Below are positions 11,840-27,496 of a stretch of DNA of 64,000 nucleotides, piece after piece. The DNA is from Aquificaceae bacterium (GTDB taxonomy: Bacteria > Aquificota > Aquificia > Aquificales > Aquificaceae): NCBI GenBank assembly GCA_037481935.1, contig JBBFKQ010000009.1, forward strand, positions 1 to 64,000, written 5' to 3'. Numbering within the stretch: position 1 is the stretch's first letter; every line of letters starts with the position of its first letter. The position numbers were made by a program, and so were the translations under genes. The notes under the pieces are model-generated. The model saw only the letters and a program-made list of their open reading frames with translations. It did no database searches and had not been told where the DNA came from.

Positions 11840-11863
11840 GCTTTACCCTCCTTTATAGAAATT

Positions 11864-12253: not shown

Positions 12254-12510
12254 GCCTCCACAGCCCTCCTGGCTTCAGCCTCCTCAGGGACACCCACAAA
12301 GGCAAGCTTACCATCTATTATGGTGGAGGGGACAGCTCTTACTATGAGCTTTTTTGCCCACATTCTGCCCTCCGGCTGTGCCACATCAAGCACCTCGTAT
12401 TTAAAGCCATACTCTGCCTGAAGCTTCCTCCAGAGGGCATCTGCATCGGGGCACGTGGCACACCACTGTGAAACAAGCAGGATAACATGCTTATCTCTCG
12501 CTGCCATCAT
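12250..12510 (-). CDS. thioredoxin-like protein with WCATC active site (sHdr operon)
   Basis: This 86-residue thioredoxin-fold protein has a CxxC motif (W16-C17-A-T-C20-P) after a hydrophobic strand and the cis-proline segment AVPSTIIDGK. The start at 12510 gives an ATGA overlap with the second lbpA; another ATG follows at once. It is smaller than ordinary thioredoxin and closer to glutaredoxin-like thioredoxins. Sitting between lbpA and dsrE, it may keep the lipoyl dithiol or DsrE persulfide in the right redox state. This role is inferred from position only. Confidence 0.75.
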   Translation of the reverse strand: MMAARDKHVILLVSQWCATCPDADALWRKLQAEYGFKYEVLDVAQPEGRMWAKKLIVRAVPSTIIDGKLAFVGVPEEAEARRAVEA

Positions 12511-12986: not shown

Positions 12987-12995
12987 GCTCTACTC

Positions 12996-13955: not shown

Positions 13956-13966
13956 GTTAAACCTCC

Positions 13967-14725
13967 TTAGTGTAATGCACCTTCTTCCTGCATCACTTTG
14001 CGCAGGACCTGCTTGAACTTGCTCCAGTTCTTTGTTCTTGGATGGAAGAGCATGTGCTTGGCGTTCAGGACCAGGAAGCCTATGTTCATGGATTTGAGGG
14101 GCTTTACAGTTAACTGCTTTAGCCACTCTGGAGTTTCACCTATGAAGGGTATGGGCTTTTTGAGTATGGGGTCTTTGAAAACCCTGTATCCCTGCTTTTC
14201 TATCCATCCAAAGAGCAACTCTCCATCCTCTATCCTTCCATATTCAAGAACGGACTCGGTGAAGAACTTGTCAAACTTCTTGGAGGGATATTCCTCCACA
14301 AGCCCCTTCTTCGCCATCGCTCTGAGTATTGCCTTGAGCACCTCCTCAACGAGCACACCCTTTGGACATCTGTGCGTGCATTTGTGGCAGGAGACACACC
14401 TCCACATAACATCCGCACGCTTCTGAAGCTCATCTATCATACCCAGCCTTGCAAGGTATATGAAGTGTCTTGGATTGTATCTCTCATCCCAGTAGTTGTG
14501 GACGGGGCAAGAGGCAGTGCAGTAGGAGCACTGGTAGCACTGGGTTATGGTTTTGCCATCGGGAGAATTCATAACATCCTTGGCAAAGTCAAGGTCATAA
14601 TCGTTTATCACCCTGGGGAGGATTATCAGGTTCCAGTCCCCAGAGACATCAACGCCGTCAATAACAAGCCTTTCTTTCCTCAAAATTCTCTCCGGCTCTA
14701 CAAGGCTACGCTCGTGTATTGCCAT
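13967..14725 (-). CDS. shdrC2: sHdrC2, heterodisulfide-reductase subunit C-like iron-sulfur protein
   Basis: This 252-residue protein carries two classical [4Fe-4S] motifs: C63xxC66xxC69xxxC73P (CYQCSYCTASCPV) and C110xxC113xxC116xxxC120P (CVSCHKCTHRCPKG). This matches HdrC, which passes electrons between the flavin subunit and HdrB. The gene order A-Hyp-C2-B2 is the conserved sHdr order. Its stop codon lies within the ribosome site of shdrB2, so the two are tightly coupled. The C-terminal half has no recognised motif. Confidence 0.92.
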   Translation of the reverse strand: MAIHERSLVEPERILRKERLVIDGVDVSGDWNLIILPRVINDYDLDFAKDVMNSPDGKTITQCYQCSYCTASCPVHNYWDERYNPRHFIYLARLGMIDELQKRADVMWRCVSCHKCTHRCPKGVLVEEVLKAILRAMAKKGLVEEYPSKKFDKFFTESVLEYGRIEDGELLFGWIEKQGYRVFKDPILKKPIPFIGETPEWLKQLTVKPLKSMNIGFLVLNAKHMLFHPRTKNWSKFKQVLRKVMQEEGALH

Positions 14726-14727
14726 GG

Positions 14728-15462
14728 TTATACCTCCAGAAGGTCTTCATTTCTTATAACACCAAGCAGTCTTCTTGCCATAACCCCGGCAGGGGGGAAG
14801 AAGCCCTTGGCACTGTGCATGGTGGACAGGGTCATGTAGTCCACATAGGTGGCGTATATCATGGCAAGGAATATGTCCACAAAGAGATACCCCTTTACCT
14901 TTATACCAAAGTCCAGAAGCTTTTCCTGAACCTGCTTGTATATGAGCTCAAACTCCTCGTAAGTTTCCCCATACATGCTCCTCTTTGGGGGCTCTTCCTT
15001 TAGAAAGACCACCGCACCACTCTCGCTCTCTGGGTCCCATATCCAGCTTGTCCACAGCACATACTGCTCAGGAAAGGTAAAGTGAAGTATCTCACTGGCT
15101 ATATCCCTTGCAGACTTCCTGTCCACACCCCTTATCTCTTTTACAAACTTCTCCACCCTCTCTTCCCAGCTCTGAGCCTTTCCGTAGAGGAGGTCGCTTA
15201 TGGCTCTTTTGAGCCTGTCAATGCCCGTTTCTTGGATTATCTTCTGCCTTTTTCTTCTTGCGGGGAATATCTTTTCCAGAATTAGGTCAATGTCCTCCTC
15301 TGTAAGGGATGGGAGCCTCTCCTTGCTGAAAGCCTGCTGGAAGAGGAGGGATTTGGCGAGGAGGTCCTTGTAAAATTCCTGAACGAAGTCCTCGCCTTCT
15401 CCCAGTATCTTTATCAGGTAGTCCCTGACAAGAAAGTCATCAAGAATGACAGGCTTCTTCAT
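14728..15462 (-). CDS. conserved sHdr-locus protein of unknown function (Hyp)
   Basis: This 244-residue, mostly helical, Lys/Glu-rich protein has no cysteine clusters or recognisable catalytic motif. Aromatic, conserved-looking stretches include QYVLWTSWIWDPESESGAV and AMIYATYVDYMTL. It lies between shdrA and shdrC2, exactly where the unnamed 'Hyp' gene of sHdr loci is always found. It overlaps the shdrA stop as ATGA. It is probably a structural or assembly component; no biochemical role can be read from the sequence. Confidence 0.8.
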   Translation of the reverse strand: MKKPVILDDFLVRDYLIKILGEGEDFVQEFYKDLLAKSLLFQQAFSKERLPSLTEEDIDLILEKIFPARRKRQKIIQETGIDRLKRAISDLLYGKAQSWEERVEKFVKEIRGVDRKSARDIASEILHFTFPEQYVLWTSWIWDPESESGAVVFLKEEPPKRSMYGETYEEFELIYKQVQEKLLDFGIKVKGYLFVDIFLAMIYATYVDYMTLSTMHSAKGFFPPAGVMARRLLGVIRNEDLLEV

Positions 15463-16517
15463 ACCATCACCTTTGCACCCAGGAATGCTGCCGCCTCCGC
15501 AGCTGCTGCCTCACCTTCGGAGAAGGAAGACTCTATGTCTATGGGACCCTTACAGGCACCTGCTATGAAAATGCCTGGCTTGTTGGATATGATGTTGGAG
15601 CCAGACTCTTCAGAGGGTATGAGGAACTGGCTATCAGGGTCCTGGGCAAGCCCCAGAATCTTGGCGACCTTCTTGGTTCCGGGGGATGGCTCCATTCCAA
15701 GCACAAGCACCACAAGGTCCATGGGAACCTCTGCAGGTCTCTGAACTATGGTGTCCTCATGCTTTACCCTGAGCCTTCCGTCTGCAGGGCTGTATGTGAT
15801 TTCCGCAATCCTTCCCCTCACATACCTGACACCAAACTGCTCCTGAGGAGCCCAGTAGAAGGGGTATTCCCATGTGCCGTAGGTTCTCACGTCCATGTAA
15901 TAACAGAAAACGTCCACATCAGGGTAGTGCTCCCTTATTTCCATACCCTGAAGACCAGACAGTGCACAACCATACCTGCAGCAGTGAACGTTGGTCACAC
16001 CCAGCTGTCTGTCCCTTGAGCCCACACAGAAAACAAAAGCAACCCTTCTTGGAAGCTGTCCGTTGGAGGGTCTGTAGAGCTTGCCTTCCTGAGAGAACAT
16101 CCTTTCAAGCTCAAGGTTCGTTATAACATCTGGATACAGCCCGTAGCCGAGCTCACCTTTCCTTCTTGGGTCAAAGTGCTCAAAGCCGGTGGCAACCACT
16201 ATGGCACCCACCTCATGCTTTTCTCCGTTGGAGAGGGTCACCCTGTATTCTCCGGGCTCGCCTTCGCAGGCGGTCAGCTCCGTGTTGAGAAGAACCTTCA
16301 CATTGGGGTTTTGCTCCACATCCTTTATGTAAGGACCTATCACCTGGGAGGGTTTTAGCTTTCTGGGGATTAAGGTGTGGTAGTGGTTTTTGATAGGATT
16401 CCCACCCAGCTGACTGTCCTTTTCCACCAAGATAGTGGATACTCCGAGCCTTCCCAGAGTTCTGGCCGCCGCGAGTCCTGCAGGACCACCTCCAACTACC
16501 AGCACGCTCTTAGCCAT
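15459..16517 (-). CDS. shdrA: sHdrA, flavin subunit of the sulfur-oxidising Hdr-like complex
   Basis: This 352-residue protein has the FAD-binding GGGPAG motif at residues 9-14 and a second dinucleotide-binding motif around IVVATGFEHFDP. A Cys set VFCVGSRD…HCCRYGC is in the place of the HdrA iron-sulfur site. It lacks the extra ferredoxin domains of methanogen HdrA and has the short form typical of sHdr. A strong AAAGGAGG ribosome site precedes the ATG. It probably accepts electrons from lipoyl-bound sulfur oxidation; the final acceptor is not evident. Confidence 0.92.
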   Translation of the reverse strand: MAKSVLVVGGGPAGLAAARTLGRLGVSTILVEKDSQLGGNPIKNHYHTLIPRKLKPSQVIGPYIKDVEQNPNVKVLLNTELTACEGEPGEYRVTLSNGEKHEVGAIVVATGFEHFDPRRKGELGYGLYPDVITNLELERMFSQEGKLYRPSNGQLPRRVAFVFCVGSRDRQLGVTNVHCCRYGCALSGLQGMEIREHYPDVDVFCYYMDVRTYGTWEYPFYWAPQEQFGVRYVRGRIAEITYSPADGRLRVKHEDTIVQRPAEVPMDLVVLVLGMEPSPGTKKVAKILGLAQDPDSQFLIPSEESGSNIISNKPGIFIAGACKGPIDIESSFSEGEAAAAEAAAFLGAKVMV

Positions 16518-16542
16518 GTTAAACCTCCTTTAGTTGTTCTTA

Positions 16543-16559
16543 TGGGGGCAGAGCCCCCA
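16543..16559 (-). other. intercistronic hairpin between shdrB1 and shdrA
   Basis: TGGGGGC (16543-16549) pairs with GCCCCCA (16553-16559) around a three-base loop, in the 50-bp gap. No T-run follows on the transcribed strand, so it is more likely an RNA stabiliser or processing block than a terminator. Confidence 0.55.
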
Positions 16560-16567
16560 GAGAAAGC

Positions 16568-17920
16568 TTAGGACTTGAAAAGTGGCATGTTTGCAGTTGC
16601 AGAAGCCTTTGGCTTACCTGTGGAAGTCCTGCTGTAAGGCTCATAAAGGTCGTATTCCTTGAAGAATTCCATGAGCTCGTCGTATTTACCGGCCTTTTCC
16701 AGGTCTGCTATGTATTTGACGGTGTCTTCCCACTCTTTCCTGAGCTCTCTCCAGTTGGTTATTCCCATTTTCTCAAGGAGTCTCTCGTAATCGGAGCAGT
16801 TCCAGTATAGCTGGACTATCTTGAAGGGATGTGCACCGCAGGCGAGGGCTGCAAACATAACGTCAGACATGACTGCCACAGGGTGATACATGCCATGGGC
16901 CTTTCCTATCCACTGGTTCTTCTCAAAGGTGGTGGTGCAACCCGTGTCATGGGTCACTATGAGGTCTGCCTTTATCTCCTCTGCGATAACTTTGAGCTTC
17001 CTCTGTATGGCAAAGGACCTGGTAAACTCCCTCTCGGTCAGTATGTGCCTGAAGCCAAAGCCACAGCAGTCATACCATGTGGAATAGTCCACCACCTGCG
17101 CACCAAGGGCTTTGACAACCGCCGCAGATGCTGCAGGCCTCTGTCCGTTGTAAACCTCCGGGTCATAGGGGTAGTCGTCAGCAATCATCTTGTAGGTGTG
17201 GCAGGCGTTGTGGATGGCAACCCTTACGTTGGAAACATCTATGCCCTTTGGCTTACCCTCCTTCTGGTAGAGGTCTGCAATCTTGTATCTCATGGCGTGA
17301 ACCCATTCGGAGTAGTGGACCACCTCCTGGGGTATAACTATTCTCCCATCCTCTGTGAGCCTTCCGAGCTTTTTCAGGATTGGCTTTACGGCGTCTCTGA
17401 GCTCCTTGTTCATTATAAGCTGTTCTCTCGTTTCCTTGTATGAACCAAAAGAGGTTCCGCAATGAATGAGGGGATAGTATCCGGTCTTCCATGCCTGGTG
17501 CATATTTCTGAGCCATACCGCCGCAAGGGCAACAGGGTTGGAAGTGCCAGAGCCGTGATAGTTCCATGCGGTGCATGAGGTCTGGTGAGGTTCATTCAGG
17601 TAGTCAAGTCCGAACTTGTTCATGAACCAAAAAACAGAGGCAGGATATCCGGGTATGTTTCCGCACTGACCACAGGACTTGTGATGCCAGAGCTTATTGG
17701 TAGGGATGGTTTTTATCCTTCCTGTCCTTGTGAAGACCTCTATGGGCTGGTGCTCTTCGGTTATCCTGTGTATGAGTATTTCGCCCTTTGCCTCAAGCTC
17801 TTCCATCATCTCAAAGATGTGGTCGTAGTGGGCGCTGTATTCTTTGAGTGGGAAGGGGGGCTGTTCTGGATATCTCAGAAGACCTCCCGGGCTGTTATGT
17901 CCAAAGCCATGTTTTGCCAT
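16568..17920 (-). CDS. shdrB1: sHdrB1, heterodisulfide-reductase subunit B-like
   Basis: This 450-residue subunit is longer than sHdrB2. The second cysteine domain is recognisable (NACHTYK, DCCGFGFRH, HDTGCTTT). The first is degenerate: SCGQCGNIPGYP and HQTSCTAWNYH occur without a CCG core, as known for the B1 subunit of sHdr complexes. A C-terminal helical extension of ~60 residues is rich in Glu and Lys. The ribosome site TAAGGAGG is strong. It lies between shdrC1 and shdrA in the canonical order and probably forms the second catalytic arm of the complex. Confidence 0.92.
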   Translation of the reverse strand: MAKHGFGHNSPGGLLRYPEQPPFPLKEYSAHYDHIFEMMEELEAKGEILIHRITEEHQPIEVFTRTGRIKTIPTNKLWHHKSCGQCGNIPGYPASVFWFMNKFGLDYLNEPHQTSCTAWNYHGSGTSNPVALAAVWLRNMHQAWKTGYYPLIHCGTSFGSYKETREQLIMNKELRDAVKPILKKLGRLTEDGRIVIPQEVVHYSEWVHAMRYKIADLYQKEGKPKGIDVSNVRVAIHNACHTYKMIADDYPYDPEVYNGQRPAASAAVVKALGAQVVDYSTWYDCCGFGFRHILTEREFTRSFAIQRKLKVIAEEIKADLIVTHDTGCTTTFEKNQWIGKAHGMYHPVAVMSDVMFAALACGAHPFKIVQLYWNCSDYERLLEKMGITNWRELRKEWEDTVKYIADLEKAGKYDELMEFFKEYDLYEPYSRTSTGKPKASATANMPLFKS

Positions 17921-17944
17921 GATTACACCTCCTTAGGTTTTTTC

Positions 17945-17958
17945 GGGGCATCAACCCC
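17945..17958 (-). other. short intercistronic hairpin between shdrC1 and shdrB1
   Basis: CGGGG-catcaa-CCCC gives a four-base GC stem (17945-17948 with 17955-17958) inside the 48-bp gap. It is weak, but similar in place to the stronger hairpin before shdrA. Confidence 0.3.
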
Positions 17959-17968
17959 TTTGATTAGC

Positions 17969-18697
17969 TTACTCTTCTTCCTCATAAAGCTCCTCATACC
18001 TTTCCTCGTTTTCCTCCACAATGTCCATTATGACGTTGTAGAGGTTGGGGTCGAGCTTTTCCAGCATTTCAAATATACCCGTCTCTCTCCATATGGTATA
18101 CATCTCCACTGCCGTCTCAAGGGATACTTCCCATGCGGTCTTTACAGACTTACCCACATCAAAGGGTATGGCAAGCCTTTTGGCTCTGAGGTTTTCCATG
18201 TTGTCTGCCATCTTTGGACCCCAGTCGGGGAAGAAGTCGGGCTGGAGCATGTCTGCAGAGAGCTGGTTTCCTGTGGTCATGACTTTGAGAAGCACCCTTC
18301 CGTAGGGCTTGAGGAGGTCTTTGGTTGCCTCAAAAGCGTTACGCACCGCCACTTCTCTCATTATTGCTACAAGACCACCTGGGTTGTTCACAAAGGGGCA
18401 CCTTATCCAGCAGGTAAAGCACTGAGAGCATGCCCAGATGTATTCGTGCATCATATCATACAGGACTTCCACATCCTCTTCCAGAAACCTCTGCACTATT
18501 TCTCTGGGAGAGTAATCAAAGAACCTGTTGGAAGGACAGGATGCGGTGCATACGCCACAGTTAAGACAGCCAAAGATGTATTCCTTAAAACGAAAGTCAG
18601 ACTTTACCTCCTCCACTATACGGACCTTTTCCTCCCAAGGCACTGCCTTGGTTTTCTCCGATATGGGGAGGTTATATCCATAAATATGTCCATCCAT
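17969..18697 (-). CDS. shdrC1: sHdrC1, heterodisulfide-reductase subunit C-like iron-sulfur protein
   Basis: This 242-residue protein has two [4Fe-4S] motifs: C44xxC47xxC50xxxC54P (CLNCGVCTASCPS) and C90xxC93xxC96xxxC100P (CSQCFTCWIRCPF). It ends in a very acidic tail (EENEERYEELYEEEE). It starts the shdrC1-B1-A-Hyp-C2-B2 block with a strong AAGGAGG ribosome site. Its role is electron relay within the sHdr complex. The 134-bp gap upstream may hold an internal promoter. Confidence 0.92.
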   Translation of the reverse strand: MDGHIYGYNLPISEKTKAVPWEEKVRIVEEVKSDFRFKEYIFGCLNCGVCTASCPSNRFFDYSPREIVQRFLEEDVEVLYDMMHEYIWACSQCFTCWIRCPFVNNPGGLVAIMREVAVRNAFEATKDLLKPYGRVLLKVMTTGNQLSADMLQPDFFPDWGPKMADNMENLRAKRLAIPFDVGKSVKTAWEVSLETAVEMYTIWRETGIFEMLEKLDPNLYNVIMDIVEENEERYEELYEEEE

Positions 18698-18831
18698 GGT
18701 AAACCTCCTTAAGGTTTCTTCCTTCTATAAAGGTATTATGCACATGATAAAAGTCAATTAAATTTTGCTTATGTATATATAAGGATAAACTTATGAGTGC
18801 ATACTCAAAAAAGGGGGAGGTGGAAACAGAA
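18698..18831 (-). promoter_or_regulatory. intergenic region before shdrC1, possible internal promoter
   Basis: This AT-rich 134-bp spacer contains a TTGACT box (18757-18752 on the minus strand) and downstream -10-like hexamers CATAAT (18740-18735) and TATAGA (18729-18724), none at ideal spacing. No T-rich terminator hairpin for the upstream dsrE gene is visible. Read-through from tusA is therefore likely, with a possible second start here. Confidence 0.35.
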
Positions 18832-19248
18832 TTAAAGGGTGAGAACTGCATACTCGCCGCTCATGAGCTTGTCAAGAAAGGCTGCACCACCTATTATGCC
18901 ATCGCAGAGTTCCGGGTTCACATCTTCTTTTTTGTATATTTCCGTCAGGTCAAGGGATGGCACGCAAAGGTATATCTTCACACCAGCATCCTTTGCCATC
19001 TTTATGAAGTCATAGATGGTCTGTTCCACCCCTGGACGAACCTTTACCTTTTTGGCATTGTCTCTCATAAGCAGAAAGCCAGCTTCTGAGGTTATAACCA
19101 TCTCAACCTCGTAGTCCATGGTGGTGGCGGCGGTGGCAAGGAAGAAGGGAGCACCCGCCTGTGGGTTTATAAGCTCGCCGGTGGTCGGCTCTGCCCTTTC
19201 AAAGAAGGGCACCGTCAGGATGTAGAAGAGCACTTTCTCGTATGCCAT
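18832..19248 (-). CDS. DsrE-family sulfurtransferase
   Basis: This 138-residue DsrE-fold protein (MAYEKVLFYILTVPFF…FFLATAATTMDYEVEMV) has a candidate sulfur-carrying Cys95 in GVKIYLCVPSLDL. A second Cys lies near residue 114. It is encoded between a DsrE2-like gene and shdrC1 on the same strand with an 11-bp gap upstream. It probably relays sulfane sulfur from TusA or DsrE2 into the sHdr pathway. The chain from TusA to DsrE proteins is established in sulfur oxidisers; the specific partner here is inferred. Confidence 0.83.
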   Translation of the reverse strand: MAYEKVLFYILTVPFFERAEPTTGELINPQAGAPFFLATAATTMDYEVEMVITSEAGFLLMRDNAKKVKVRPGVEQTIYDFIKMAKDAGVKIYLCVPSLDLTEIYKKEDVNPELCDGIIGGAAFLDKLMSGEYAVLTL

Positions 19249-19259
19249 ATCTATCCTCC

Positions 19260-19793
19260 TTAGACGAAGATTATCATGGGCTTGTCTGCCTCAAGCACGT
19301 AGTTCATGAAGGTGGCAGCGCCTGCGGGTGGCTCAAGACCTTCTATGAGGTCTTCATATTTATATCCAAAAAGCTCCATGGTCATCTGACAGGGTATGAG
19401 CTTTACCTCCGCTTCCTTGCAGACCTCTACAAGCTCAGGTATGTCCGCCACACCGTGCTCTTTTATGGTCTTTTTCATCATAAAACTCATGAGGTCTGTC
19501 ATTCCAGGAATTACGCCCATAATCTGAGGAGGTCCTGGAAATATGGAAGATATGGCATTTGTTACGGGGTTCTGCATGGAGGGAGGGAAAGCCATTGGCA
19601 TGGCGGGGTTCCCTATGGGTGCAATCTTGAGTTCGTGCATCTTCTTCCTGTGTATGATGTTTAGACCGTAAAAGGTAAAGAATATTGCCGTCTCTATGCC
19701 AAGGGAGGCTGCGGTTGAGGCAAGGATAAGGGGTGGGTATGCCATGTCGAGGGTGCCCTTTGTGGCTATTATGGCAAGTCTTTCTGTAACCAT
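19260..19793 (-). CDS. DsrE2-like sulfur carrier (DsrE/DsrF/DrsH-like family)
   Basis: This 177-residue protein starts MVTERLAIIATKGTLDMAYPPLILASTAASLG, a DsrE2-family N-terminus. A Met/Pro-rich insert occupies residues 60-107, and Cys125 and Cys135 (KLIPCQMTMELFG) are candidate sulfur acceptors. Family members bind sulfane sulfur and interact with TusA, whose gene lies 12 bp upstream. The hydrophobic middle could associate with the membrane, but no clear transmembrane pair is visible. It is part of the tusA-dsrE2-dsrE relay. Confidence 0.83.
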   Translation of the reverse strand: MVTERLAIIATKGTLDMAYPPLILASTAASLGIETAIFFTFYGLNIIHRKKMHELKIAPIGNPAMPMAFPPSMQNPVTNAISSIFPGPPQIMGVIPGMTDLMSFMMKKTIKEHGVADIPELVEVCKEAEVKLIPCQMTMELFGYKYEDLIEGLEPPAGAATFMNYVLEADKPMIIFV

Positions 19794-19805
19794 ATGTTTC
19801 CCTCC

Positions 19806-20042
19806 TTATTTCTTCTTGAGGTAGAAGATTATCTTTCCTCCCTCTTCCACCGTTTCAAGAAGCTGATGTCCCGTTCTGTTGCAGAAGGCTGGTATGTCAG
19901 CCTTTGCCCCCGGGTCTGTGGTTATAACTTCAAGTATCTGTCCAGATTGAAGCTCCTCAATAGCCTTTTTTGTTTTGAGAACTGGAAGAGGACAGTTAAG
20001 ACCAGATGCGTCAAGGGTCTTATCTGGTGTTATGGTTGCCAT
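19806..20042 (-). CDS. tusA: TusA-family sulfur carrier
   Basis: This 78-residue protein has the hallmark GLNCPLPVLKTKKA, with the persulfide-forming Cys17 of the CPxP motif. The ATG at 20042 lies just after AGGAGGTG; an in-frame GTG nine bases upstream overlaps that ribosome site and is less likely. It is a central cytosolic sulfur donor, here heading an apparent relay into the sHdr operon and not the thiouridine pathway, judging by the dsrE2 and dsrE neighbours. Confidence 0.93.
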   Translation of the reverse strand: MATITPDKTLDASGLNCPLPVLKTKKAIEELQSGQILEVITTDPGAKADIPAFCNRTGHQLLETVEEGGKIIFYLKKK

Positions 20043-20074
20043 TTTAAACACCTCCTGTGTAAGATTATCCTCAT

Positions 20075-20140
20075 ATTATAAGTCTCGCATAGAGTGTATG
20101 CCATTAGTAATTATGATAAAGATTATAAGTTTTCCTTATA
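20075..20140 (-). promoter_or_regulatory. promoter region of the tusA-dsrE-shdr operon with inverted repeat
   Basis: Two TATAAT boxes occur on the minus strand (20080-20075 and 20127-20122). The upstream one is embedded in an inverted repeat TATAAG-N5-CTTATA (20124-20140), directly after the sbtB stop codon. No convincing -35 is seen. The repeat could be an operator or a weak stem closing the upstream operon. Confidence 0.45.
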
Positions 20141-20434
20141 TCAGTGCGTGAGCCAGAGCACATCAGATATGAGGCATGCTCCTCCAACCTTTTTCAGTAG
20201 CGGTCTCAGACTCTCCGCTATCTTCTGTGCCACCTCTTCGGAGCATACTGTAAACACATAGCTGTTTTTGAACACGTCTGTAAGCTCATCGCCTGCCATT
20301 ATACCCCTTTCTCCCTTTCCCAGGGCATCCTTTATAACCGTATAACCGGAAACTCCTGCCTTCTCCAGCACATCAAGCACCCTGCTAAGGTATATGCTGT
20401 CAATCACCACCTCAACCTTTTTCATAGGCTTCAT
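20141..20434 (-). CDS. sbtB: PII-like protein SbtB, partner of the bicarbonate transporter
   Basis: This 97-residue PII-like protein has a KKVEVVIDSIYLSRVLDVLEKAGVSGYTVI N-terminal half (ferredoxin-like fold). The GKGERGIMAGDELTD region stands where the T-loop would be and lacks the uridylylated Tyr of classical PII. The cyanobacterial SbtB C-terminal CGPxGC motif is absent. It follows the SbtA gene by 4 bp. SbtB proteins bind adenine nucleotides and gate SbtA. The start may be the first ATG or the fourth codon, also ATG. Confidence 0.8.
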   Translation of the reverse strand: MKPMKKVEVVIDSIYLSRVLDVLEKAGVSGYTVIKDALGKGERGIMAGDELTDVFKNSYVFTVCSEEVAQKIAESLRPLLKKVGGACLISDVLWLTH

Positions 20435-20438
20435 CTTC

Positions 20439-21410
20439 TTACCCCCATAGATGGTTTATTAGAAAGTAATATAGTGGTATGCCTACTGCTATGTTAAAGG
20501 GGAAAGTTATGGCAAGGGACATGGTAACATAAAGGCTGGGGTTTGCCTCGGGCACCGATAGCCTCATGGCGGCGGGAACTGCTATGTAAGAAGCACTTGC
20601 ACACAGGATGGAAAACATAAAGGCATCCCCCTTTGCCAGACCAAAGGTTTTCGCAAGAAATATTCCCACAAGGGCGTTGAACACAGGAAGAAGCACACCA
20701 AAGGCTATGAGGAAAAGCCCAACTTTTCTAATCTCACCAATCCTGCGACCGGCCACTATACCCATATCAAGCAAGAAAAAGGCAAGCATGCCCTTAAACA
20801 GGACTCCAAACAGCGGATCCATGGCTTTCCAGCCCTTTTCACCTGTGAGAAAGCCTATAAGAAGGGTTCCCATGAGTATGTAGACAGAGGGGTTGAGAAA
20901 GGCTTCTCTCAGAACCTCACCCCAGTTTACCCCCGTGTTGCTGTTTCTTCTGGCAAAGAGAGTAAGAAGCACAAGTCCTATGACTATGGCGGGGGACTCC
21001 ATAAGGGTCATGGCGGCCACCATGTAGCCACCATAGCTCTGCCCGAGGCTGTTTAGAAAAGAACCAGCGGTAATGAAGGTAACCGCACTTATGGAGCCGT
21101 AAGTGGCCGCTATGGCAACGGCGTTGTAAACATCAAGCCTTAGCCTGAGAATGAAAAAGGCGTATACGGGCACTGCAACCGCCATGAACATGGCAAGCAG
21201 GAGCACTTTGAGCACTTCAAAGGTTATGCCGCTCTTGGAAAGTTCGTAGCCACCATGAAGACCTATTGCTATAAGAAGATAAAGGGAAAAGAGCTTTGGT
21301 AGAGGCTGTGGCACTTCAAGCTCTGTCCTGAGGAGGATGGCACCAAGCCCGAGGAGGAACATGAGAACAGGCGGATTGAGTATGTTCTGCAAAAGCAGTT
21401 CAAAACCCAT
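20439..21410 (-). CDS. sbtA: SbtA-type sodium-dependent bicarbonate transporter
   Basis: This 323-residue membrane protein has about ten hydrophobic helices and the family text ATYGSISAVTFITAG and VAAMTLMESPAIVIGL. The two inverted halves each contain a broken-helix 'SxSAVTF/ASASYIAVPAA' segment. These match the SbtA (DUF897) family of high-affinity HCO3- importers. The ATG is preceded by GGAGGG. It sits between a COG0523 GTPase gene and the PII-like partner, downstream of CO2-fixing oxidoreductase genes, which supports a role in carbon supply. Confidence 0.88.
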   Translation of the reverse strand: MGFELLLQNILNPPVLMFLLGLGAILLRTELEVPQPLPKLFSLYLLIAIGLHGGYELSKSGITFEVLKVLLLAMFMAVAVPVYAFFILRLRLDVYNAVAIAATYGSISAVTFITAGSFLNSLGQSYGGYMVAAMTLMESPAIVIGLVLLTLFARRNSNTGVNWGEVLREAFLNPSVYILMGTLLIGFLTGEKGWKAMDPLFGVLFKGMLAFFLLDMGIVAGRRIGEIRKVGLFLIAFGVLLPVFNALVGIFLAKTFGLAKGDAFMFSILCASASYIAVPAAMRLSVPEANPSLYVTMSLAITFPFNIAVGIPLYYFLINHLWG

Positions 21411-21428
21411 CTTTTACCCTCCAGAAAA

Positions 21429-22307
21429 TTAGTTTTCTATAAGCACCAGAAAGGAGGGCCCGTCGTAGCCTTTGACTTCTATCGGGTTATCTATGTATCC
21501 AAAGGAATAGTTTACCGCAACGGGGAAAGGATAGTGCTTTAGCCTAACTATTCCCTTTGCCCTTATTATGTTCTCAGGCAGGCTTTTTAATCTCTTTTCA
21601 AGCTCTTCGTAATCCACGGGTTCAATCAGGTTTATAACTCTATGGTGGTGACTGTGCCCATGTTCTGTGGCTATGTTCTTGAGCTCAGGAATCGTATATG
21701 CACCTGAGAATACTTCCTCAGGAAGCCTGCCGTATACTGCTCTATAGAGTCTCACCCTTGTGTAGAAGGGTTCTCCCGTAAAAGAGTTAACCGGTCTGTA
21801 AAGCCTCCAGATATCCAGCACTTCCCTTTCTATCTCCAATACTCTTTTTTCTTCCACCAGGTCTGTTTTGTTCAGCACTATCACGTTTGAACCGCCTATC
21901 TGATACCTTGCAGTGCTATCTTCCCTGTACTTTTCAAAGCTCCAGCAGTCTACAAGGCAAATAACTCCATCCACGCTGCAACCCAGTGCCTGAAGGCTCA
22001 GGATTATGGGAAAGGGCACCGCCCCACCAGAGGTCTCCACCAAAAGCAGCTGGGGGTCATACTTTTCTCTTATTTCCTTAATTGCCTTCTCAAACTCAGA
22101 ATGAAGGGAACAGCATATGCAGCCCTCTGGAAGCTCAAGCACCTCAGAGTATGCATTTTTGAGGACCTTACCGTCCACACCCACCTCACCCAGTTCGTTA
22201 ACTATGACCGCCACCCTTTTTCCCTGAAAATGCTCCCTCGCTGAATTGACAAGAAGGGTAGTCTTACCACTTCCAAGAAATCCGGTTATTACAAAGGCAG
22301 GGAGCAT
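21429..22307 (-). CDS. COG0523 (CobW/YjiA-like) metal-handling GTPase
   Basis: This 292-residue P-loop GTPase has Walker A GFLGSGKTT near residues 8-16 and the metal-binding GCICC motif, with LNKTDL as the base-specificity motif. A His-rich EHGHSHHHR stretch lies before the C-terminal domain. The family delivers Zn, Co or Fe to client enzymes. Its place between the oxidoreductase operon and sbtAB suggests a client in carbon metabolism, perhaps a zinc carbonic anhydrase, but no such gene is in the window. Confidence 0.88.
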   Translation of the reverse strand: MLPAFVITGFLGSGKTTLLVNSAREHFQGKRVAVIVNELGEVGVDGKVLKNAYSEVLELPEGCICCSLHSEFEKAIKEIREKYDPQLLLVETSGGAVPFPIILSLQALGCSVDGVICLVDCWSFEKYREDSTARYQIGGSNVIVLNKTDLVEEKRVLEIEREVLDIWRLYRPVNSFTGEPFYTRVRLYRAVYGRLPEEVFSGAYTIPELKNIATEHGHSHHHRVINLIEPVDYEELEKRLKSLPENIIRAKGIVRLKHYPFPVAVNYSFGYIDNPIEVKGYDGPSFLVLIEN

Positions 22308-22308
22308 T

Positions 22309-22605
22309 TTACTCTCCGCCGTATTCCACAGAGTCTATCTCCTCCATGAACTGCTGTATCTGAAAGGTAACAAGACCTGCAAGGTCTTTTACATCCTTCT
22401 CCCAATACATGGGGTCAATGTCTATCTCCTTTTCATACACATCGTGCCCCTCTACCACATACTTCACCCTGAGGTAGGGATAGCTCTTGACCTCACAGCC
22501 CTGGTCCACTTCATTGGGAAAGCACAGCTCAATGTCAAGGTCGGGGTTTGCCATACTCTTCTTAACTTCTTCCGCAAGAAGGTTAAACTTGTCCTCTAAG
22601 TTCAT
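22309..22605 (-). CDS. conserved small protein between forE-like and COG0523 genes, unknown function
   Basis: This 98-residue acidic protein begins MNLEDKFNLLAEEVKKSMANPDLD. Its middle contains strands with two Cys (ELCFPNEVDQGCEVKSYPYL), and the C-terminal half is Asp/Glu rich. The ATG at 22605 follows GAGGTGG; an in-frame start 15 bases upstream overlaps forE. It belongs to no family I recognise. It is co-directional and separated by only 1-12 bp on either side, so it is co-expressed with the oxidoreductase and could be an accessory or assembly factor. Confidence 0.6.
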   Translation of the reverse strand: MNLEDKFNLLAEEVKKSMANPDLDIELCFPNEVDQGCEVKSYPYLRVKYVVEGHDVYEKEIDIDPMYWEKDVKDLAGLVTFQIQQFMEEIDSVEYGGE

Positions 22606-22616
22606 ACTCCACCTCC

Positions 22617-22841
22617 TCAATCTCCGGCGGTTACCATGACCATTTCTATGCAGTTTCTCTTAAGAAGGTCGGAACACACATAAACGCATATGGCACATCC
22701 CTTACATCTTGAGTAGTTTACCCATGCCACATGCTTGGAGTCATGATACATGAGAGTGTTGGGTTCTGGACAGAAGAGCACGCACTGTTTGCAGTTATAC
22801 TTAGCACAGTCCGCTTCCTTTACATCTGCCACATAGTACAT
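22617..22841 (-). CDS. forE: 2-oxoacid:ferredoxin oxidoreductase, ferredoxin-like (E/delta-type) subunit
   Basis: This 74-residue polyferredoxin-like subunit contains two four-cysteine sets, C-x4-C-x2-C-x3-CP (CAKYNCKQCVLFCP) and C-x2-C-x2-C-x3-C (CKGCAICVYVC). It would carry electrons from the catalytic subunits to ferredoxin, or from ferredoxin when carboxylating. It is the last of five genes in the order D-A-B-G-E described for the Hydrogenobacter 2-oxoglutarate enzyme. The symbol follows that order by inference; a pyruvate-specific enzyme is possible. Confidence 0.78.
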   Translation of the reverse strand: MYYVADVKEADCAKYNCKQCVLFCPEPNTLMYHDSKHVAWVNYSRCKGCAICVYVCSDLLKRNCIEMVMVTAGD

Positions 22842-22868
22842 ACCTGCCTTGCCTCCTTATAGATTAAT

Positions 22869-23552
22869 TTAACCCGTAAGAGCTTCTTCTTCCACCCAGC
22901 CCCTTTCCTCCGCTATCTTGAAGGCTTCCCTTATGACCTGCATGTTCTTTTCAAGAAGCTCCATCTTTTTCTTGAACTTCTTCTCTATGGCGCTGTCAAG
23001 GGCGGTGGTTCCACCAGAAGCCACAAAGGTATTTCCGAGGAACCTTTCTCTTACTGCCTGCTCAATATGTTCAAAGCCCACGATTCGGGTTATTCCGAAA
23101 AAGAGACCTATCATTGCCATATTAGTGGCAAGTTCTGTGCCGGCTATGTCCAGAGCTATCTTTGTTGCGGGGAACATGTAGACCCTTGTGTTCAGGTCGC
23201 TCAGTATCTTCCAGTCTTCTTCAGGTATTATATCCACATCTGTGTTTATTATGGCAAGGCCATTTTCCTTAAGTCCTGAATAGAAGGGCATGGTGTAGGA
23301 CTTTCCATGGGTTATGACCTGGGGATGATAAATCATTATAACATTGGGATAGACCACCTCACCCACCTCATAGATGGGCTGGTCGGAGACCCTCACGTAG
23401 GCTTCCACAGGTGCCATTCTCTTTTCAGAGCCAAAGAAGGGAACAAGGGTGGCATATTTGCCAGCCGCAGACATGGCATTACCAAGTATGTGGGCGGAGG
23501 TAACCACCCCCTGCCCACCGACGCCTGCTATGCGTATGTTATACCTTTTCAT
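22869..23552 (-). CDS. forG: 2-oxoacid:ferredoxin oxidoreductase gamma subunit
   Basis: This 227-residue subunit begins with the gamma-domain signature RIAGVGGQGVVTSAHILGNA and contains FFGSEKRMAPVEAYVRVSD. Its start overlaps the beta gene by four bases (ATGA). In the reductive TCA cycle this enzyme carboxylates succinyl-CoA or acetyl-CoA using reduced ferredoxin. The C-terminal tail is helical and charged. Substrate specificity cannot be decided from this subunit. Confidence 0.88.
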   Translation of the reverse strand: MKRYNIRIAGVGGQGVVTSAHILGNAMSAAGKYATLVPFFGSEKRMAPVEAYVRVSDQPIYEVGEVVYPNVIMIYHPQVITHGKSYTMPFYSGLKENGLAIINTDVDIIPEEDWKILSDLNTRVYMFPATKIALDIAGTELATNMAMIGLFFGITRIVGFEHIEQAVRERFLGNTFVASGGTTALDSAIEKKFKKKMELLEKNMQVIREAFKIAEERGWVEEEALTG

Positions 23553-24415
23553 GCTTTAACCTCCTCGGGCTTCCTTTCAATCTCTTCAAAGAACTCCTTA
23601 ACCTCCTCCGTCATCCATTCATAAAAGCCAAAGTCCTGCTTTTCCCTCTTCCTGGCATCCTCAAGAACCTTCTCAGTGGGTATGGAATACTCTATGTTGC
23701 AGGAAGTGTAGGCATGTATGAAGGTAGGCCCAAAGTGCCTTGCGGCGAGGATTGCCCTCCTCACGGTTTTTGCGATTCTCTTGGGATTTGTGGGAGAAAG
23801 CTTTGCCACATAGACACAGCCTGCGGTCTTGGCAAGCTCCACTGCGTTTATCTTGTCAAACTGCTTTCCTTTTGGAGCCATCTTGAGCTGAACGCCCTTT
23901 GGAGACATACCACTCTCCTGACCTCCCGTGTTTCCATAGACCTCGTTGTCCACCATAATGGTGGTAAACTTCTCCCTTCTGAACCAGGAGTGCATGGTCA
24001 TACCAAAGCCTATGTCAATCAGTCCTCCATCACCAGCTATGACCACCACATCCTTTTCCTTGTCGGGGAACCTTATACTGAGGGCCCTCTTGAGACCTGA
24101 GGCAACCGCATTGGTGTCTCCGTAGTTTCCGTATATGAAGGGGACCGCCGCCTGAGAGAGGGAAAGCCTTGCGCATCCGGCGGTGCCTATGACTATGGTG
24201 TCCTCTGGCTTTGGAAGTGCTGCATAGAAGACCCTTATGAAGTAAGCCATGAAGCACCCTGCACACATGGGGTGCTCTTCCACCAACTCCTTGAACTGTC
24301 CCAGCTGCTGGACGTCTATCTCTTTTCCAAACTGCCCGTACTGGACCAGGTCCACGTAGTCTTTGGGCATATATTTCTCAAAGCCTGGTGAAATTCTTAC
24401 ATACTCCAGACCCAT
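23549..24415 (-). CDS. forB: 2-oxoacid:ferredoxin oxidoreductase beta subunit (thiamine-diphosphate binding)
   Basis: This 288-residue subunit holds the ThDP motif: GDGGLIDIGFGM followed by VDNEVYGNTGGQ. The N-terminal HPMCAGCFMAYF and GTAGCARLS provide cysteines for a [4Fe-4S] cluster near the active site. The ribosome site AGGAGG is clear. It pairs with the alpha subunit encoded 21 bp upstream. Together they cleave or form the C-C bond at the 2-oxo carbon. Confidence 0.9.
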   Translation of the reverse strand: MGLEYVRISPGFEKYMPKDYVDLVQYGQFGKEIDVQQLGQFKELVEEHPMCAGCFMAYFIRVFYAALPKPEDTIVIGTAGCARLSLSQAAVPFIYGNYGDTNAVASGLKRALSIRFPDKEKDVVVIAGDGGLIDIGFGMTMHSWFRREKFTTIMVDNEVYGNTGGQESGMSPKGVQLKMAPKGKQFDKINAVELAKTAGCVYVAKLSPTNPKRIAKTVRRAILAARHFGPTFIHAYTSCNIEYSIPTEKVLEDARKREKQDFGFYEWMTEEVKEFFEEIERKPEEVKA

Positions 24416-24436
24416 CTTTACACCTCCTTGAAGTTT

Positions 24437-25606
24437 TTATACAACAACCTTCTTTTCCTTCTTTATACCAAGGGCCTGATAGATCTTTTCCATTATGAGC
24501 TCCACCGGCAGCGTCATACCACCGTAGACCCTTGGTCCGCCTATCACGCTGTCACTGTTGGGAATGGCAGCCTTTACCTCCTTGGCAAGCCATCCCACTA
24601 TGTTGTGCTCTGGCACTATTATAGCCTTTGCCTTTGAAAGCACCTGTCTTATCTCCTTCTCCGGGAAGGGTCTTATGGACTTGACCTTTACAAGACCCAC
24701 ATTGAGACCCTCAAGCTGGGCATAACGCACCGCTTCCCTTCCCTGAGCGGCAGCACAACCGGAGGCAACCACAAAGACCTCTGCGTCCGGGTTTATCACC
24801 TCTATGGGTCCTCCAAGGTATTTGTATATATATTTCATAGCCCTTATGTTGGAAGCCCATATCTCCTGCTGCCAGACCGCATGTATAAGATAGCTCATGA
24901 AGTTGGACTTCTGGACTGGAGCATCCCTCTGTATCCTTGCTGGTGGTATCTCACAGTCTGTGGGAGGCACTGGTGCCTTGTAGGGGTCTCTGGGGGGCAG
25001 TTTCATGTCCTCGGGGGTCATGTTCACGTAGCCTTTGGCGTGGGTGACAAAGAAGCCCTCGGTGCAGACGGCTATAGGTATGTAAACATCAACCATCTCA
25101 GATATGATAAAGCTGGCAAGGGTGAAATCAAAAACATCCTGCTGATTTTCTGCGTGCAGGACAACCATACCGCAGTTGAGAAGGTAAGAAATCTCCACAT
25201 TGTCAGGCTGTATGGAAAGAGGAGCGTTTACAACCCTTGTAAGAACACCAAGCACCGCAGGTATCCTGTGACCGGGCCAGGAAGCTATGGCTTCAAGACC
25301 CCTGAGAAGTCCGGGACCGGATGTGGCGGAAAATGCCCTTGCACCACCCCTCACTGCACCCGCTATGGCGGACATGGCACCGTATTCTTCCTCAGCCCTG
25401 TAGTAGTCCTTTATGTATCCCTGTGCCCATATATCACCCACAAGGTGCATGACCTCAGACTGGGGGGTGATTGGGTATGCTATGGCAACATCCACGTTGG
25501 CACGCTTGACTGCCTCAGCCATCGCCTGGGCACCGGTGATGAACTTTCTTTCTCTCGGTGCCTCTAAAAGAAGGTAATCTGCATCTACAACTCTCTGTTC
25601 TGGCAT
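24437..25606 (-). CDS. forA: 2-oxoacid:ferredoxin oxidoreductase alpha subunit
   Basis: This 389-residue subunit has the YPITPQSEVMH motif and EEEYGAMSAIAGAVRGGARAF, both core alpha-subunit signatures. SGPGLLRGLEAIASWPGHRIP and a C-terminal transketolase-like domain (VVASGCAAAQGREAVRYA, VKVKSIRPFP) follow. It is complete. Its gene follows the 237-residue D-type subunit by 16 bp. CoA and substrate contacts are in this subunit, but pyruvate versus 2-oxoglutarate preference is not assignable by eye. Confidence 0.9.
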   Translation of the reverse strand: MPEQRVVDADYLLLEAPRERKFITGAQAMAEAVKRANVDVAIAYPITPQSEVMHLVGDIWAQGYIKDYYRAEEEYGAMSAIAGAVRGGARAFSATSGPGLLRGLEAIASWPGHRIPAVLGVLTRVVNAPLSIQPDNVEISYLLNCGMVVLHAENQQDVFDFTLASFIISEMVDVYIPIAVCTEGFFVTHAKGYVNMTPEDMKLPPRDPYKAPVPPTDCEIPPARIQRDAPVQKSNFMSYLIHAVWQQEIWASNIRAMKYIYKYLGGPIEVINPDAEVFVVASGCAAAQGREAVRYAQLEGLNVGLVKVKSIRPFPEKEIRQVLSKAKAIIVPEHNIVGWLAKEVKAAIPNSDSVIGGPRVYGGMTLPVELIMEKIYQALGIKKEKKVVV

Positions 25607-25622
25607 GACACTACCTCCGTTT

Positions 25623-26336
25623 TTATTCGCTTTCTGTCACATGCTCTCCCCTTCTGGGGATTAAAAGGTAAGAATACTCTCCATAATCCAGAACGGAAAG
25701 GGTTTGGTATTCTTCCTTTGGAAGTGAGGGGTTTTCTGGAGGGAGCTTTGGCTCCCACTTTATACCAAGCTCTTCTCTTACCTTAACAAGCACATCTCTG
25801 AATCGCCTTATTTCATCTGCATGCTGGTCCCTGAGAGAAACCATGGCATCCTCATGCCCCATCTCTGCACACAGGGCTATGGTAAAGCAGTTTGTCCCAG
25901 CCCTTATCATCCTGAGAGAAAGGTTTGCGTAATGGCAGTGGACGCCTACAAATATACAGGCTTCTATCTTGTTGTGAAGTATGGTTAGGTTTGGATGGTT
26001 GGGGTTTATCTCGGCCTCGGGGTCTATCTTGGGATACTTTGGTCTATAGTCGGGCATGGGTATTATCCTGCAGTTGGGTATTTCCATAGATAGCTCAAGA
26101 ACAGCCTTTGCCTTTTCCATGGCTCCGGCGTTCCAGCCCCAGAGAACCAGAGGGCCAGGGAATATGGTGGGGTTTCTCCTTGTGAGCATTGCCTTTGCAG
26201 CCTCTCTCATGGCAGTCTCTTCATCCACTATCTTTCCGTAGAGCAGTGCTTTTCCTGGTGGTGGAAGTTCGACACCTTCAAAGGCTGCAGGGGTTGGTAT
26301 ATAGCCAGCGGGTCCTGGCAAAACTTCCATCGGCAT
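25623..26336 (-). CDS. forD: accessory subunit of five-subunit 2-oxoacid:ferredoxin oxidoreductase (D-type)
   Basis: This 237-residue protein has a Pro-rich N-terminus (MPMEVLPGPAGYIPTPAAF). A Rossmann-like core follows (PLVLWGWNAGAMEKAKAVL and CIFVGVHCHYANLSLRMI) that resembles the CO dehydrogenase/acetyl-CoA synthase small-subunit fold. There are no iron-sulfur motifs. It opens the operon, with a strong ribosome site AAGGAGGT. Five-subunit enzymes with such an extra protein are known in Hydrogenobacter. Its exact job, perhaps CoA or cofactor positioning, is unknown. Confidence 0.72.
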   Translation of the reverse strand: MPMEVLPGPAGYIPTPAAFEGVELPPPGKALLYGKIVDEETAMREAAKAMLTRRNPTIFPGPLVLWGWNAGAMEKAKAVLELSMEIPNCRIIPMPDYRPKYPKIDPEAEINPNHPNLTILHNKIEACIFVGVHCHYANLSLRMIRAGTNCFTIALCAEMGHEDAMVSLRDQHADEIRRFRDVLVKVREELGIKWEPKLPPENPSLPKEEYQTLSVLDYGEYSYLLIPRRGEHVTESE

Positions 26337-26365: not shown

Positions 26366-26420
26366 AAAATTAGCATGAGCTTAAAAGCTGTCAAGGGGAA
26401 TTTATATGATAATAATCATA
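26366..26420 (-). promoter_or_regulatory. promoter region of the for operon with upstream inverted repeat
   Basis: TTGACA on the minus strand (26394-26389) is followed at 17 bp by a poor AT-rich -10 (AATTTT, 26371-26366). Ten bases upstream of the -35 lies TATGAT-AATA-ATCATA (26405-26420), a perfect 6-bp inverted repeat where an activator could bind. The repeat overlaps the stop of the upstream membrane-protein gene. Confidence 0.4.
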
Positions 26421-26631
26421 GCTTTTTCCTCCTCCCCTCATCTCCACGCTCCTTCTCTTTCTCTTCCAGCTCTCTTATCCTTTTATCTCTGAGTTCTTCA
26501 TATTTTGGACCAACTTTCCTGTAAACTCTGTCCGCTATGAAGATTATTATAAGGAGAAGGGGTAGACCTACAAGGAGCATCAGGAGCAGGAGCTTCCCCA
26601 AGAAAAGGAACAGGTTTATCAGGTTTTCCAT
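26416..26631 (-). CDS. small single-pass membrane protein, unknown function
   Basis: This 71-residue protein has one long hydrophobic helix (residues ~5-33, LFLGKLLLLMLLVGLPLLL and onward). A very charged, probably coiled cytosolic tail follows, rich in Glu, Lys and Arg. It starts 1 bp after the leuS-beta stop, so co-translation is likely. No family is recognised. Its association with the synthetase may be incidental. Confidence 0.6.
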   Translation of the reverse strand: MENLINLFLFLGKLLLLMLLVGLPLLLIIIFIADRVYRKVGPKYEELRDKRIRELEEKEKERGDEGRRKKL

Positions 26632-26632
26632 G

Positions 26633-27496
26633 TCAGACCACCAGATTGAGAAGTTTGTTCTTTATGTATATCACCTTTTTGACCTCTTTACCATCGAGCC
26701 ACTGGCTCACTCTCGGGTCTCTGAGAGCAAGCTCTTTCACTGCCGACTCTTCTGCGTTTAACGGCACCCTTACCACTGCCCTCAACTTTCCGTTTACCTG
26801 CACCGGAATCTCTATTTCTTCAAGTATAAGGGCCTTCTCGTCTGGCTGTGGAAAGGGGTAAAAGGCCATGAGCCTGTCGTAGCCTAGCCTCTGCCATAGC
26901 TCCTCGCATATGTGAGGAGTTATGGGATATAGCATGAAAAGGATAATCTCAAAGGACTCTCTGAGCACCTTGTAGTCCAGACCTTCAGAGGGTTGAAAGT
27001 CCTGAAGCACATTCAGAAGCTCCATTATGCTGGCTATGGATGTGTTGAAGGAAAGGTCTTCCATGCTTGAAAGGTATTTCTTGAGAGTCTGGTGGGTCCT
27101 GTGTCTTATATCCTTACTTTTTCCCGCAAGGCTCACAAAGTCCTCTCTGCTATACCCAGCTTCTCTCATACCTTCAAGGTGCTGGTGAAAGAGGTTCCAG
27201 AGCCTTCTCAGAAACCTGTAGGCACCCTGCACTCCCTCCTCCGTCCATTCAAAGTCCTTTTCCACGGGTCCAGCGAAGAGTATGTAGAGCCTCACCGTGT
27301 CTGCTCCGTATTTCTGCACTGCCTCCTCCGGGTCAACGGTATTTCCCTTTGACTTGGACATCTTGGCAGGCTCTCCAATCTCCTGCTCCACAGCCTTCAC
27401 ATAGTCCTCTCTACGCAATCCCAGTGCATCCAGAAGTAGCTGGAAGTTGTCCCCTATGGATATGTTCTTCTGCCTGAGAAAGTCCATAACCTTCAT
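26633..27496 (-). CDS. leuS: leucyl-tRNA synthetase beta subunit (split LeuRS)
   Basis: This 287-residue protein is only the C-terminal part of LeuRS. It contains the class I KMSKS motif in AKMSKSKGNTVDPEEAV, followed by GADTVRLYILFAGPVEKDFEW. The anticodon-binding helices (PITPHICEELWQRLGY) and C-terminal extension follow. It starts with its own ATG and lacks the HIGH half. A heterodimeric alpha/beta LeuRS is established for Aquifex aeolicus, where beta has nearly this length. The alpha gene is not in the window. Confidence 0.95.
   Translation of the reverse strand: MKVMDFLRQKNISIGDNFQLLLDALGLRREDYVKAVEQEIGEPAKMSKSKGNTVDPEEAVQKYGADTVRLYILFAGPVEKDFEWTEEGVQGAYRFLRRLWNLFHQHLEGMREAGYSREDFVSLAGKSKDIRHRTHQTLKKYLSSMEDLSFNTSIASIMELLNVLQDFQPSEGLDYKVLRESFEIILFMLYPITPHICEELWQRLGYDRLMAFYPFPQPDEKALILEEIEIPVQVNGKLRAVVRVPLNAEESAVKELALRDPRVSQWLDGKEVKKVIYIKNKLLNLVV

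Follow-up and report, generated by a model that had tools for sequence, protein, structure and literature searches.

Comparative genomics suggests that evolution plugged different inorganic-carbon pumps into one CO2-fixation operon of Aquificota

Carbon-concentrating mechanisms are, to our knowledge, known almost solely around RuBisCO. Here we describe a locus in which an SbtA/SbtB-like uptake pair stands beside an enzyme of the reductive tricarboxylic acid (rTCA) cycle. The locus lies in a 64,000-nucleotide stretch of DNA from a thermophilic Aquificaceae bacterium (assembly GCA_037481935.1, contig JBBFKQ010000009.1, positions 1 to 64,000; hereafter 'the window') and comprises genes for a predicted five-subunit 2-oxoglutarate:ferredoxin oxidoreductase (OGOR; forDABGE), a small protein that we call unk103, a COG0523 GTPase, SbtA and SbtB. 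The closest described enzyme is the OGOR of Aquifex aeolicus, identified by in-gel activity and mass spectrometry in a study that gives its subunit order, by locus tags, as D-A-B-G-E (aq_1166 to aq_1171) and that of the pyruvate:ferredoxin oxidoreductase (PFOR) as E-D-A-B-G, and reports that DabAB is abundant in the same organism (PMC10052474). The rTCA cycle is counted among the pathways that mainly incorporate CO2 (PMC10880623, section 10). Genes for dissolved inorganic carbon (DIC) transporters or carbonic anhydrases have been noted as neighbours of rTCA genes, with mechanisms described as yet unstudied (section 7), and the benefit of inorganic-carbon uptake genes to rTCA autotrophs is posed there as an open question (section 14).

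Two unrelated pumps in one slot

We fetched the for region of 60 genomes which, with the window, gave 61 loci; 8 of these are cut by contig ends and 53 are resolvable. We refer to the position after forDABGE-unk103(-COG0523) as the slot. sbtA-sbtB lies directly downstream in the slot in 13 of the 53 loci and dabB-dabA, on the same strand, in 18; a PII-like gene follows dabB-dabA wherever the DNA reaches (L111, L136 and L148 end earlier). Dab occurs on the opposite strand after COG0523 in 5 loci, with por reached beyond Dab in 4 of them. Single loci have a same-strand Dab in the interval from for to por (L133), sbtAB nested inside Dab (L134), and a dabA fragment with a stop right after COG0523 (L116, positions 6,085–6,372), which is a decayed dabA remnant in a genome with sbtAB on another contig. 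The slot holds no transporter in 14 loci; among these, L128 carries sbtAB at the opposite end, past forD, and three (L140, L144 and L147) extend only 1.4–2.9 kb past unk103. The gene preceding sbtA or dabB is separated from it by −57 to +52 bp (28 loci; a distance condition left L123 and L125 out of this list).

Pfam searches identified DabA (PF10070) and DabB (Proton_antipo) in tandem in L112 and L158 (DabA, 4e-252 and 9e-250) and as two separated parts in L134, and a P-II domain in L117 and L158; the other loci were assigned by tblastn. The Dab-linked PII protein of L117 is closest to PDB entry 5d4n (4e-37), which we take to be a carboxysome-associated CPII protein. In the same locus, a SulP transporter gene follows the Dab-PII set (L117:13465-15246); its match to the BicA model is far below the cut-off.

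Both slot states occur within a single genus, g8 (Sbt in L113 and L123, Dab in L117 and L124), and Thermocrinis albus (G050), with Sbt in the slot, and G052, which has the same genus code and Dab, offer a natural comparison. Across the phylum, PF05982, the SbtA family, is present in 21 of 136 Aquificota genomes and DabA in 52 of 136; both systems occur in six genomes, one of which retains just the dabA fragment, and DabA was found in none of the 14 genomes of the window's genus. A survey of operon conservation, proposed in the preliminary description of this locus, shows the order to recur: PF05982 directly follows forE-unk103-COG0523 in 15 of the 21 carriers (11 from the window's genus together with G035, G050, G051 and G057). 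Among the other carriers, sbtAB is divergent and precedes forD in G098, lies between dabB and dabA beside por in G097 and G100, and is elsewhere in the genome in G026, G077 and G078.

A few of these assemblies hold arrangements of separate interest. sbtA-sbtB between dabB and dabA beside por (L134:8786-15096 and L186:4556-10862) places two kinds of uptake system in one run of genes. The G044 assembly contains forE-unk103-COG0523-sbtA-sbtB twice, on two contigs (L026 with L027, and L008 with L022), through either duplication or mixed strains. The sbtAB of G026 (L010) is identical to L037 while the slot of that genome holds just the dabA fragment with a stop, and this sbtAB may represent contamination or transfer.

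The neighbourhood might be accidental and merely inherited, as could be suspected from an array that is uniform within the window's genus. We regard this as very unlikely, because the arrangement recurs with two unrelated systems, the states are mixed in g8, and a single origin of the slot SbtAs is rejected: in a tree of 50 of the 116 SbtA sequences, hand-chosen for spread, constraining the 16 slot rows to one clade gave p-AU = 3e-7. On a ForA tree of 48 of the 53 resolvable loci (L140, L144, L147, L151 and L164 left out), 7 changes between the Sbt and Dab states are required across 37 rows, counts that do not separate loss of a slot copy from gain or from transfer away from the slot. Outside Aquificota, loci of this transporter (median length 14.7 kb) contain for, por or dabA in 0 of 68 cases; together with the recurrence in 15 of the 21 Aquificota carriers, the absence of for and por there rules out a chance neighbourhood. 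These patterns suggest that evolution has plugged different carbon pumps into one CO2-fixation operon.

The attachment appears to be to for in particular within Aquificaceae. Of the 11 closed Aquificaceae genomes, 8 have sbtA or dabA at 4.0–6.6 kb from forA, and none has either gene within 80 kb of porA; in one of them (G001), the transporter is more than 220 kb from both forA and porA. In Hydrogenothermaceae, the loci seen have for next to por, and Dab lies between them or beside por, so that the tie there is to rTCA carboxylases in general. These observations bear on an alternative that we consider possible, if not the probable one: that the transporter sits in the operon just so that its expression is timed with the rest of autotrophy, feeding biotin carboxylases (pyruvate carboxylase and 2-oxoglutarate carboxylase) and biosynthesis with no special relation to OGOR. 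The position of Dab in Hydrogenothermaceae, the 14 loci with no slot transporter, the CO2 substrate of OGOR and the two PYC_OADA proteins encoded in the window's genome are all in keeping with co-timed expression. It does not readily explain why the closed Aquificaceae genomes place these systems beside for and never beside por, though either enzyme could serve.

The gene array, its enzyme and its promoter

The window carries nine co-directional genes on the minus strand, from 26,336 down to 20,141, with intergenic gaps of 16, 21, −4, 27, 11, 1, 18 and 4 bp from forD onward (taking unk103 from the ATG at 22,605). The preliminary description had counted eight genes on one strand with gaps under about 30 bp; the strand and the gaps (27 bp at most) hold and the number of genes is nine. 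Each of the components that it had named (a forDABGE-like set, a small unknown, a COG0523 GTPase, sbtA and sbtB) is present, and a Pfam search backs every assignment but those of unk103, which belongs to no family, and forE, which falls below the cut-offs.

The oxidoreductase genes are all on the minus strand and begin with forD (25,623–26,336; 237 amino acids), the delta subunit, which resembles the epsilon subunit of carbon monoxide dehydrogenase/acetyl-CoA synthase (CODH/ACS; CO_dh, PF02552, 2.7e-48). It is followed by forA, the alpha subunit (24,437–25,606; 389 amino acids; POR_N, PF01855, 1e-62, and PF17147, 1e-18), forB, the thiamine pyrophosphate (TPP)-binding beta subunit (23,549–24,415; 288 amino acids; TPP_enzyme_C, PF02775, 7e-22), forG, the gamma subunit (22,869–23,552; 227 amino acids; POR, PF01558, 3e-38) and forE, a ferredoxin-like epsilon subunit (22,617–22,841; 74 amino acids; 4Fe-4S ferredoxin models, the best being Fer4_21 at 2e-7, and TIGR02179 at 4e-9, all below cut-off). 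The subunit set, the D-A-B-G-E order and the CO_dh-type delta subunit are thus all present, and because this order is that of the Aquifex OGOR, unlike the E-D-A-B-G of PFOR, we infer that the enzyme is a five-subunit OGOR. Its 2-oxoglutarate specificity is predicted from orthology. The forA orthologues are 84–97% identical across the phylum, and a forA paralogue in the window's genome is at about 49–50%.

unk103 (22,309–22,605, minus strand) encodes a small acidic protein of 98 amino acids from a conserved ATG; the longest open reading frame, from a TTG at 22,620, would give 103. The start is most likely the ATG at 22,605, because a stop codon precedes that ATG in two of the seven relatives checked. 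The gene is present in all 53 resolvable for loci, its C terminus (EEIDSVEYGGE) is nearly invariant, and distant paralogues occur in many of these genomes. It matched no Pfam or NCBIfam family, and its predicted structure (pLDDT 83) matched no PDB entry at E ≤ 0.001.

The COG0523 (G3E/CobW-type) GTPase gene (21,429–22,307, minus strand; 292 amino acids; cobW, PF02492, 6e-44, and PF07683, 7e-6) encodes the sequence EHGHSHHH. It is present in 31 of the 39 loci with a transporter compared with 1 of the 14 without (Fisher P = 3e-6, the loci being related and not independent), a contrast hinting that the protein acts on the carbon-handling side. A strict partnership with the transporter was rejected: the GTPase is missing from the Dab loci of g10 and g11, and the related loci are not independent.

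Upstream of forD is a promoter-like element (26,367–26,394, minus strand) composed of TTGACA (26,394–26,389) followed about 16 nt on by TAATTT. This element is conserved in g1, g4, g6, g8 and g9, with the TTGACA box kept in both the Sbt and the Dab genomes of these genera; no TTGAC box was found in the stretch upstream of forD in g11, g12, g14 and g16. A palindrome, TATGATnnnnATCATA (26,405–26,420), lies 24 nt upstream of the −35-like box as counted from the palindrome's TGA. It is complete in the window and partly degenerate in relatives, with a core close to GATnnnnATC, and g3 and g10 have a more degenerate form at 23–24 nt. It may be an operator of the CRP/FNR type, which it seems to resemble. 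At up to 2 mismatches it occurs 7 times in the window compared with 1.5 expected, and at up to 1 mismatch it occurs at 15 places in the genome compared with 0 for a reversed control.

A scan of the block for promoters yielded sites in numbers no greater than in shuffled sequences, and we therefore relied on conservation across species. No conserved promoter was found before sbtA (the gap is 1–40 bp in the loci measured). The gap between sbtB and tusA (20,060–20,127, minus strand) carries a separate TATAAT-like box, also conserved, together with the palindrome in two imperfect copies; the next transcription unit probably starts here. The conserved forD promoter, the lack of one before sbtA and the separate box before tusA together fit two units, one that would extend over forD to sbtB and another that would begin at tusA.

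About 90 bp downstream of sbtB, and on the same strand, are tusA, two dsrE-like genes, an hdrC-like gene and an hdrB-like gene. Beyond the last of these, an hdrA-like flavoprotein, a second hdrC and hdrB and GcvH-like proteins were recognized by eye; the same-strand region from 10,383 to 20,051 is presumably an sHdr-type sulfur oxidation cluster with lipoate-binding proteins. Copies of the palindrome, exact or with 1–2 mismatches, precede forD, tusA and hdrC (26,405–26,420, 20,112–20,127, 20,060–20,075 and 18,734–18,749), and several of the genomic sites precede genes that appear by eye to be redox- or sulfur-like. We claim no regulon, because the genes after the other sites were recognized by eye alone. 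Just upstream of forD are a 71-amino-acid protein with one apparent membrane helix (26,416–26,631) and, by eye, the C-terminal part of a leucyl-tRNA synthetase with a KMSKS-like motif (26,633–27,496); this enzyme is reportedly split in Aquifex.

The transporter, its partner and the route to the enzyme

SbtA (20,439–21,410, minus strand; 323 amino acids) is an Sbt_1 family protein (PF05982, 5e-118) that scores 394 bits against a cut-off of 27 over model positions 1–307 of 308. The five SbtA entries in the PDB rank first in a search with its AlphaFold model (pLDDT 87), with TM scores of 0.83–0.90 and 24–26% identity, and bile-acid transporters come next (E = 5e-5). Four residues of the Synechocystis protein, S114, Y140, S324 and S327, have been proposed to interact with bicarbonate (PMC8352866). 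S108 and S274, which correspond to S114 and S324, are retained in all 116 aligned sequences; the equivalent of Y140 (position 134) is methionine in 92 and leucine in 24, and that of S327 (position 277) is alanine in all 116. The window protein, with M134 and A277, thus retains two of the four proposed residues and departs from the canonical cyanobacterial SbtA1 set. An SbtA-like protein of Labrenzia is reported to have given no transport in Escherichia coli (PMC4275256), and because of this and of the two changed residues, bicarbonate is here the predicted substrate.

The same substitutions and the inactive Labrenzia protein raise the alternative that this PF05982 protein moves some other small anion, as does the spread of its subfamily through many lineages that are not known to be autotrophic, Bacteroidota among them. 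We judge another anion improbable, given that it and DabAB alternate repeatedly in one slot, that the SbtA fold and both serines are conserved, and that 54 of the 68 non-Aquificota loci have a match to SbtB. The breadth of the subfamily, which also includes members from Planctomycetota, Campylobacterota and others, does not bear out an association of SbtA with RuBisCO as a marker. No carboxysome or RuBisCO context was noticed among the open reading frames listed around the block, although no search was aimed at RuBisCO.

SbtB (20,141–20,434, minus strand; 97 amino acids) starts 4 bp after sbtA, and both the PII fold (P-II, PF00543, 3e-16; 60 bits, cut-off 25) and the adjacency to sbtA are as expected of the family. 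Its PDB relatives are the weak matches CPII (5d4n, 9e-9) and SbtB (6wue, 1.5e-5). Of the T-loop motif R43xxR46 given for Synechocystis SbtB (PMC10117731), R43 is kept and position 46 is methionine. The CGPxGC redox R-loop, which is conserved in some SbtBs alone (PMC8352866), is absent from the window protein, which ends at residue 97; the other 16 SbtB rows were cut at the ends of their matches and are uninformative on this loop. Given these differences of residue and loop, we file the pair as a PF05982 protein with a PII-like partner and not as a canonical SbtA1-SbtB. Gating of SbtA by adenylates through SbtB is predicted by homology.

Because OGOR takes CO2, SbtA cannot feed it directly, and the imported bicarbonate has either to be converted to CO2 or to go to biotin carboxylases. 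The proposed supply of bicarbonate, gated by nucleotides, to ferredoxin-dependent carboxylation is therefore not supported as worded, given that the rTCA cycle mainly incorporates CO2 (PMC10880623, section 10). An alpha- or beta-type carbonic anhydrase was rejected as a partner, as none was found in the window's genome or in any of the 15 genomes with Sbt in the slot. The sole strong carbonic-anhydrase candidate found in the window's genome is of the gamma type (G000:C1:55543-55878, L167), with a carbonic anhydrase as its best PDB match (2e-59). The two PYC_OADA proteins of this genome are of the type of biotin carboxylase component expected to use bicarbonate. It also encodes two SulP proteins, so SbtA may not be its sole route.

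An uptake system exchanged within a probable autotrophy operon

We consider it probable that the locus is an autotrophy operon in which the rTCA OGOR is expressed together with a system for inorganic-carbon uptake, and that evolution can exchange this system for another. The suggested tie between the Sbt pair and a CO2-fixing enzyme of the rTCA cycle is supported; the genes appear to form one transcription unit, and relatives carry an unrelated carbon pump in the same slot. SbtA would import bicarbonate with sodium, and SbtB, judging by homology, would most likely bind SbtA and throttle it in response to adenylates. Part of the bicarbonate would become CO2, through the gamma-type carbonic anhydrase or spontaneously at high temperature, and be fixed by OGOR, and another part would go straight to the cycle's biotin carboxylases. 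In sister genera, DabB-DabA, a CO2-hydrating pump with its own CPII-type PII protein, may do the same job where CO2 is the better substrate. More tentatively, the OGOR operon could be a docking site for exchangeable PII-gated pumps and the core of an rTCA-based carbon-concentrating mechanism, with unk103 as a sixth OGOR component and the COG0523 protein as a metal chaperone for the carbon-handling side; we hold this fuller version to be possible but doubtful.

Several points weigh against the operon reading. OGOR uses CO2 and not bicarbonate, and two of the four proposed bicarbonate residues are replaced throughout the 116 aligned SbtA sequences. Linkage is not required, because 14 of the 53 slots are empty though 12 of these 14 genomes carry DabA elsewhere. 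The count of swaps depends on a tree of one gene that is weakly resolved within genera, and closely related genomes are not independent. That two unrelated pumps, both accompanied by a PII-like protein of their own, have repeatedly been exchanged in one operon slot is strong comparative evidence that the supply serves the pathway.

The general juxtaposition of DIC transporter and rTCA genes has been reported, and exchange within the slot, unk103, the COG0523 gene and the conserved promoter are absent from sections 7, 10, 11 and 14 of that source (PMC10880623). Among the papers listed by searches of the open-licence PMC literature, we found no report of Sbt/Dab exchange in one for slot. The A. 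aeolicus OGOR shares with the window enzyme its five subunits, their D-A-B-G-E order and a delta subunit of the CODH/ACS epsilon type; it differs in its setting, as genus g2, which we take to include A. aeolicus, has no transporter after for and has Dab elsewhere. The cyanobacterial SbtA-SbtB pair (Slr1512-Slr1513) shares the PF05982 fold, the adjoining PII-like gene and the S114 and S324 equivalents. The window SbtA, however, is about 26% identical to it and has 323 rather than 374 amino acids, with the Y140 and S327 equivalents changed, and the window SbtB lacks the CGPxGC R-loop and R46; the window pair also stands beside an rTCA enzyme. The SbtA2-SbtB2 pair of marine cyanobacteria belongs to a second SbtA family that likewise has a PII-like partner of its own and transports bicarbonate (PMC13249358). 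The DAB system (DabA-DabB with a CPII-type PII) is non-homologous to Sbt, takes CO2 rather than bicarbonate and is absent from the window's genus, yet in sister genera it fills this very slot, where a PII-like gene again comes after it.

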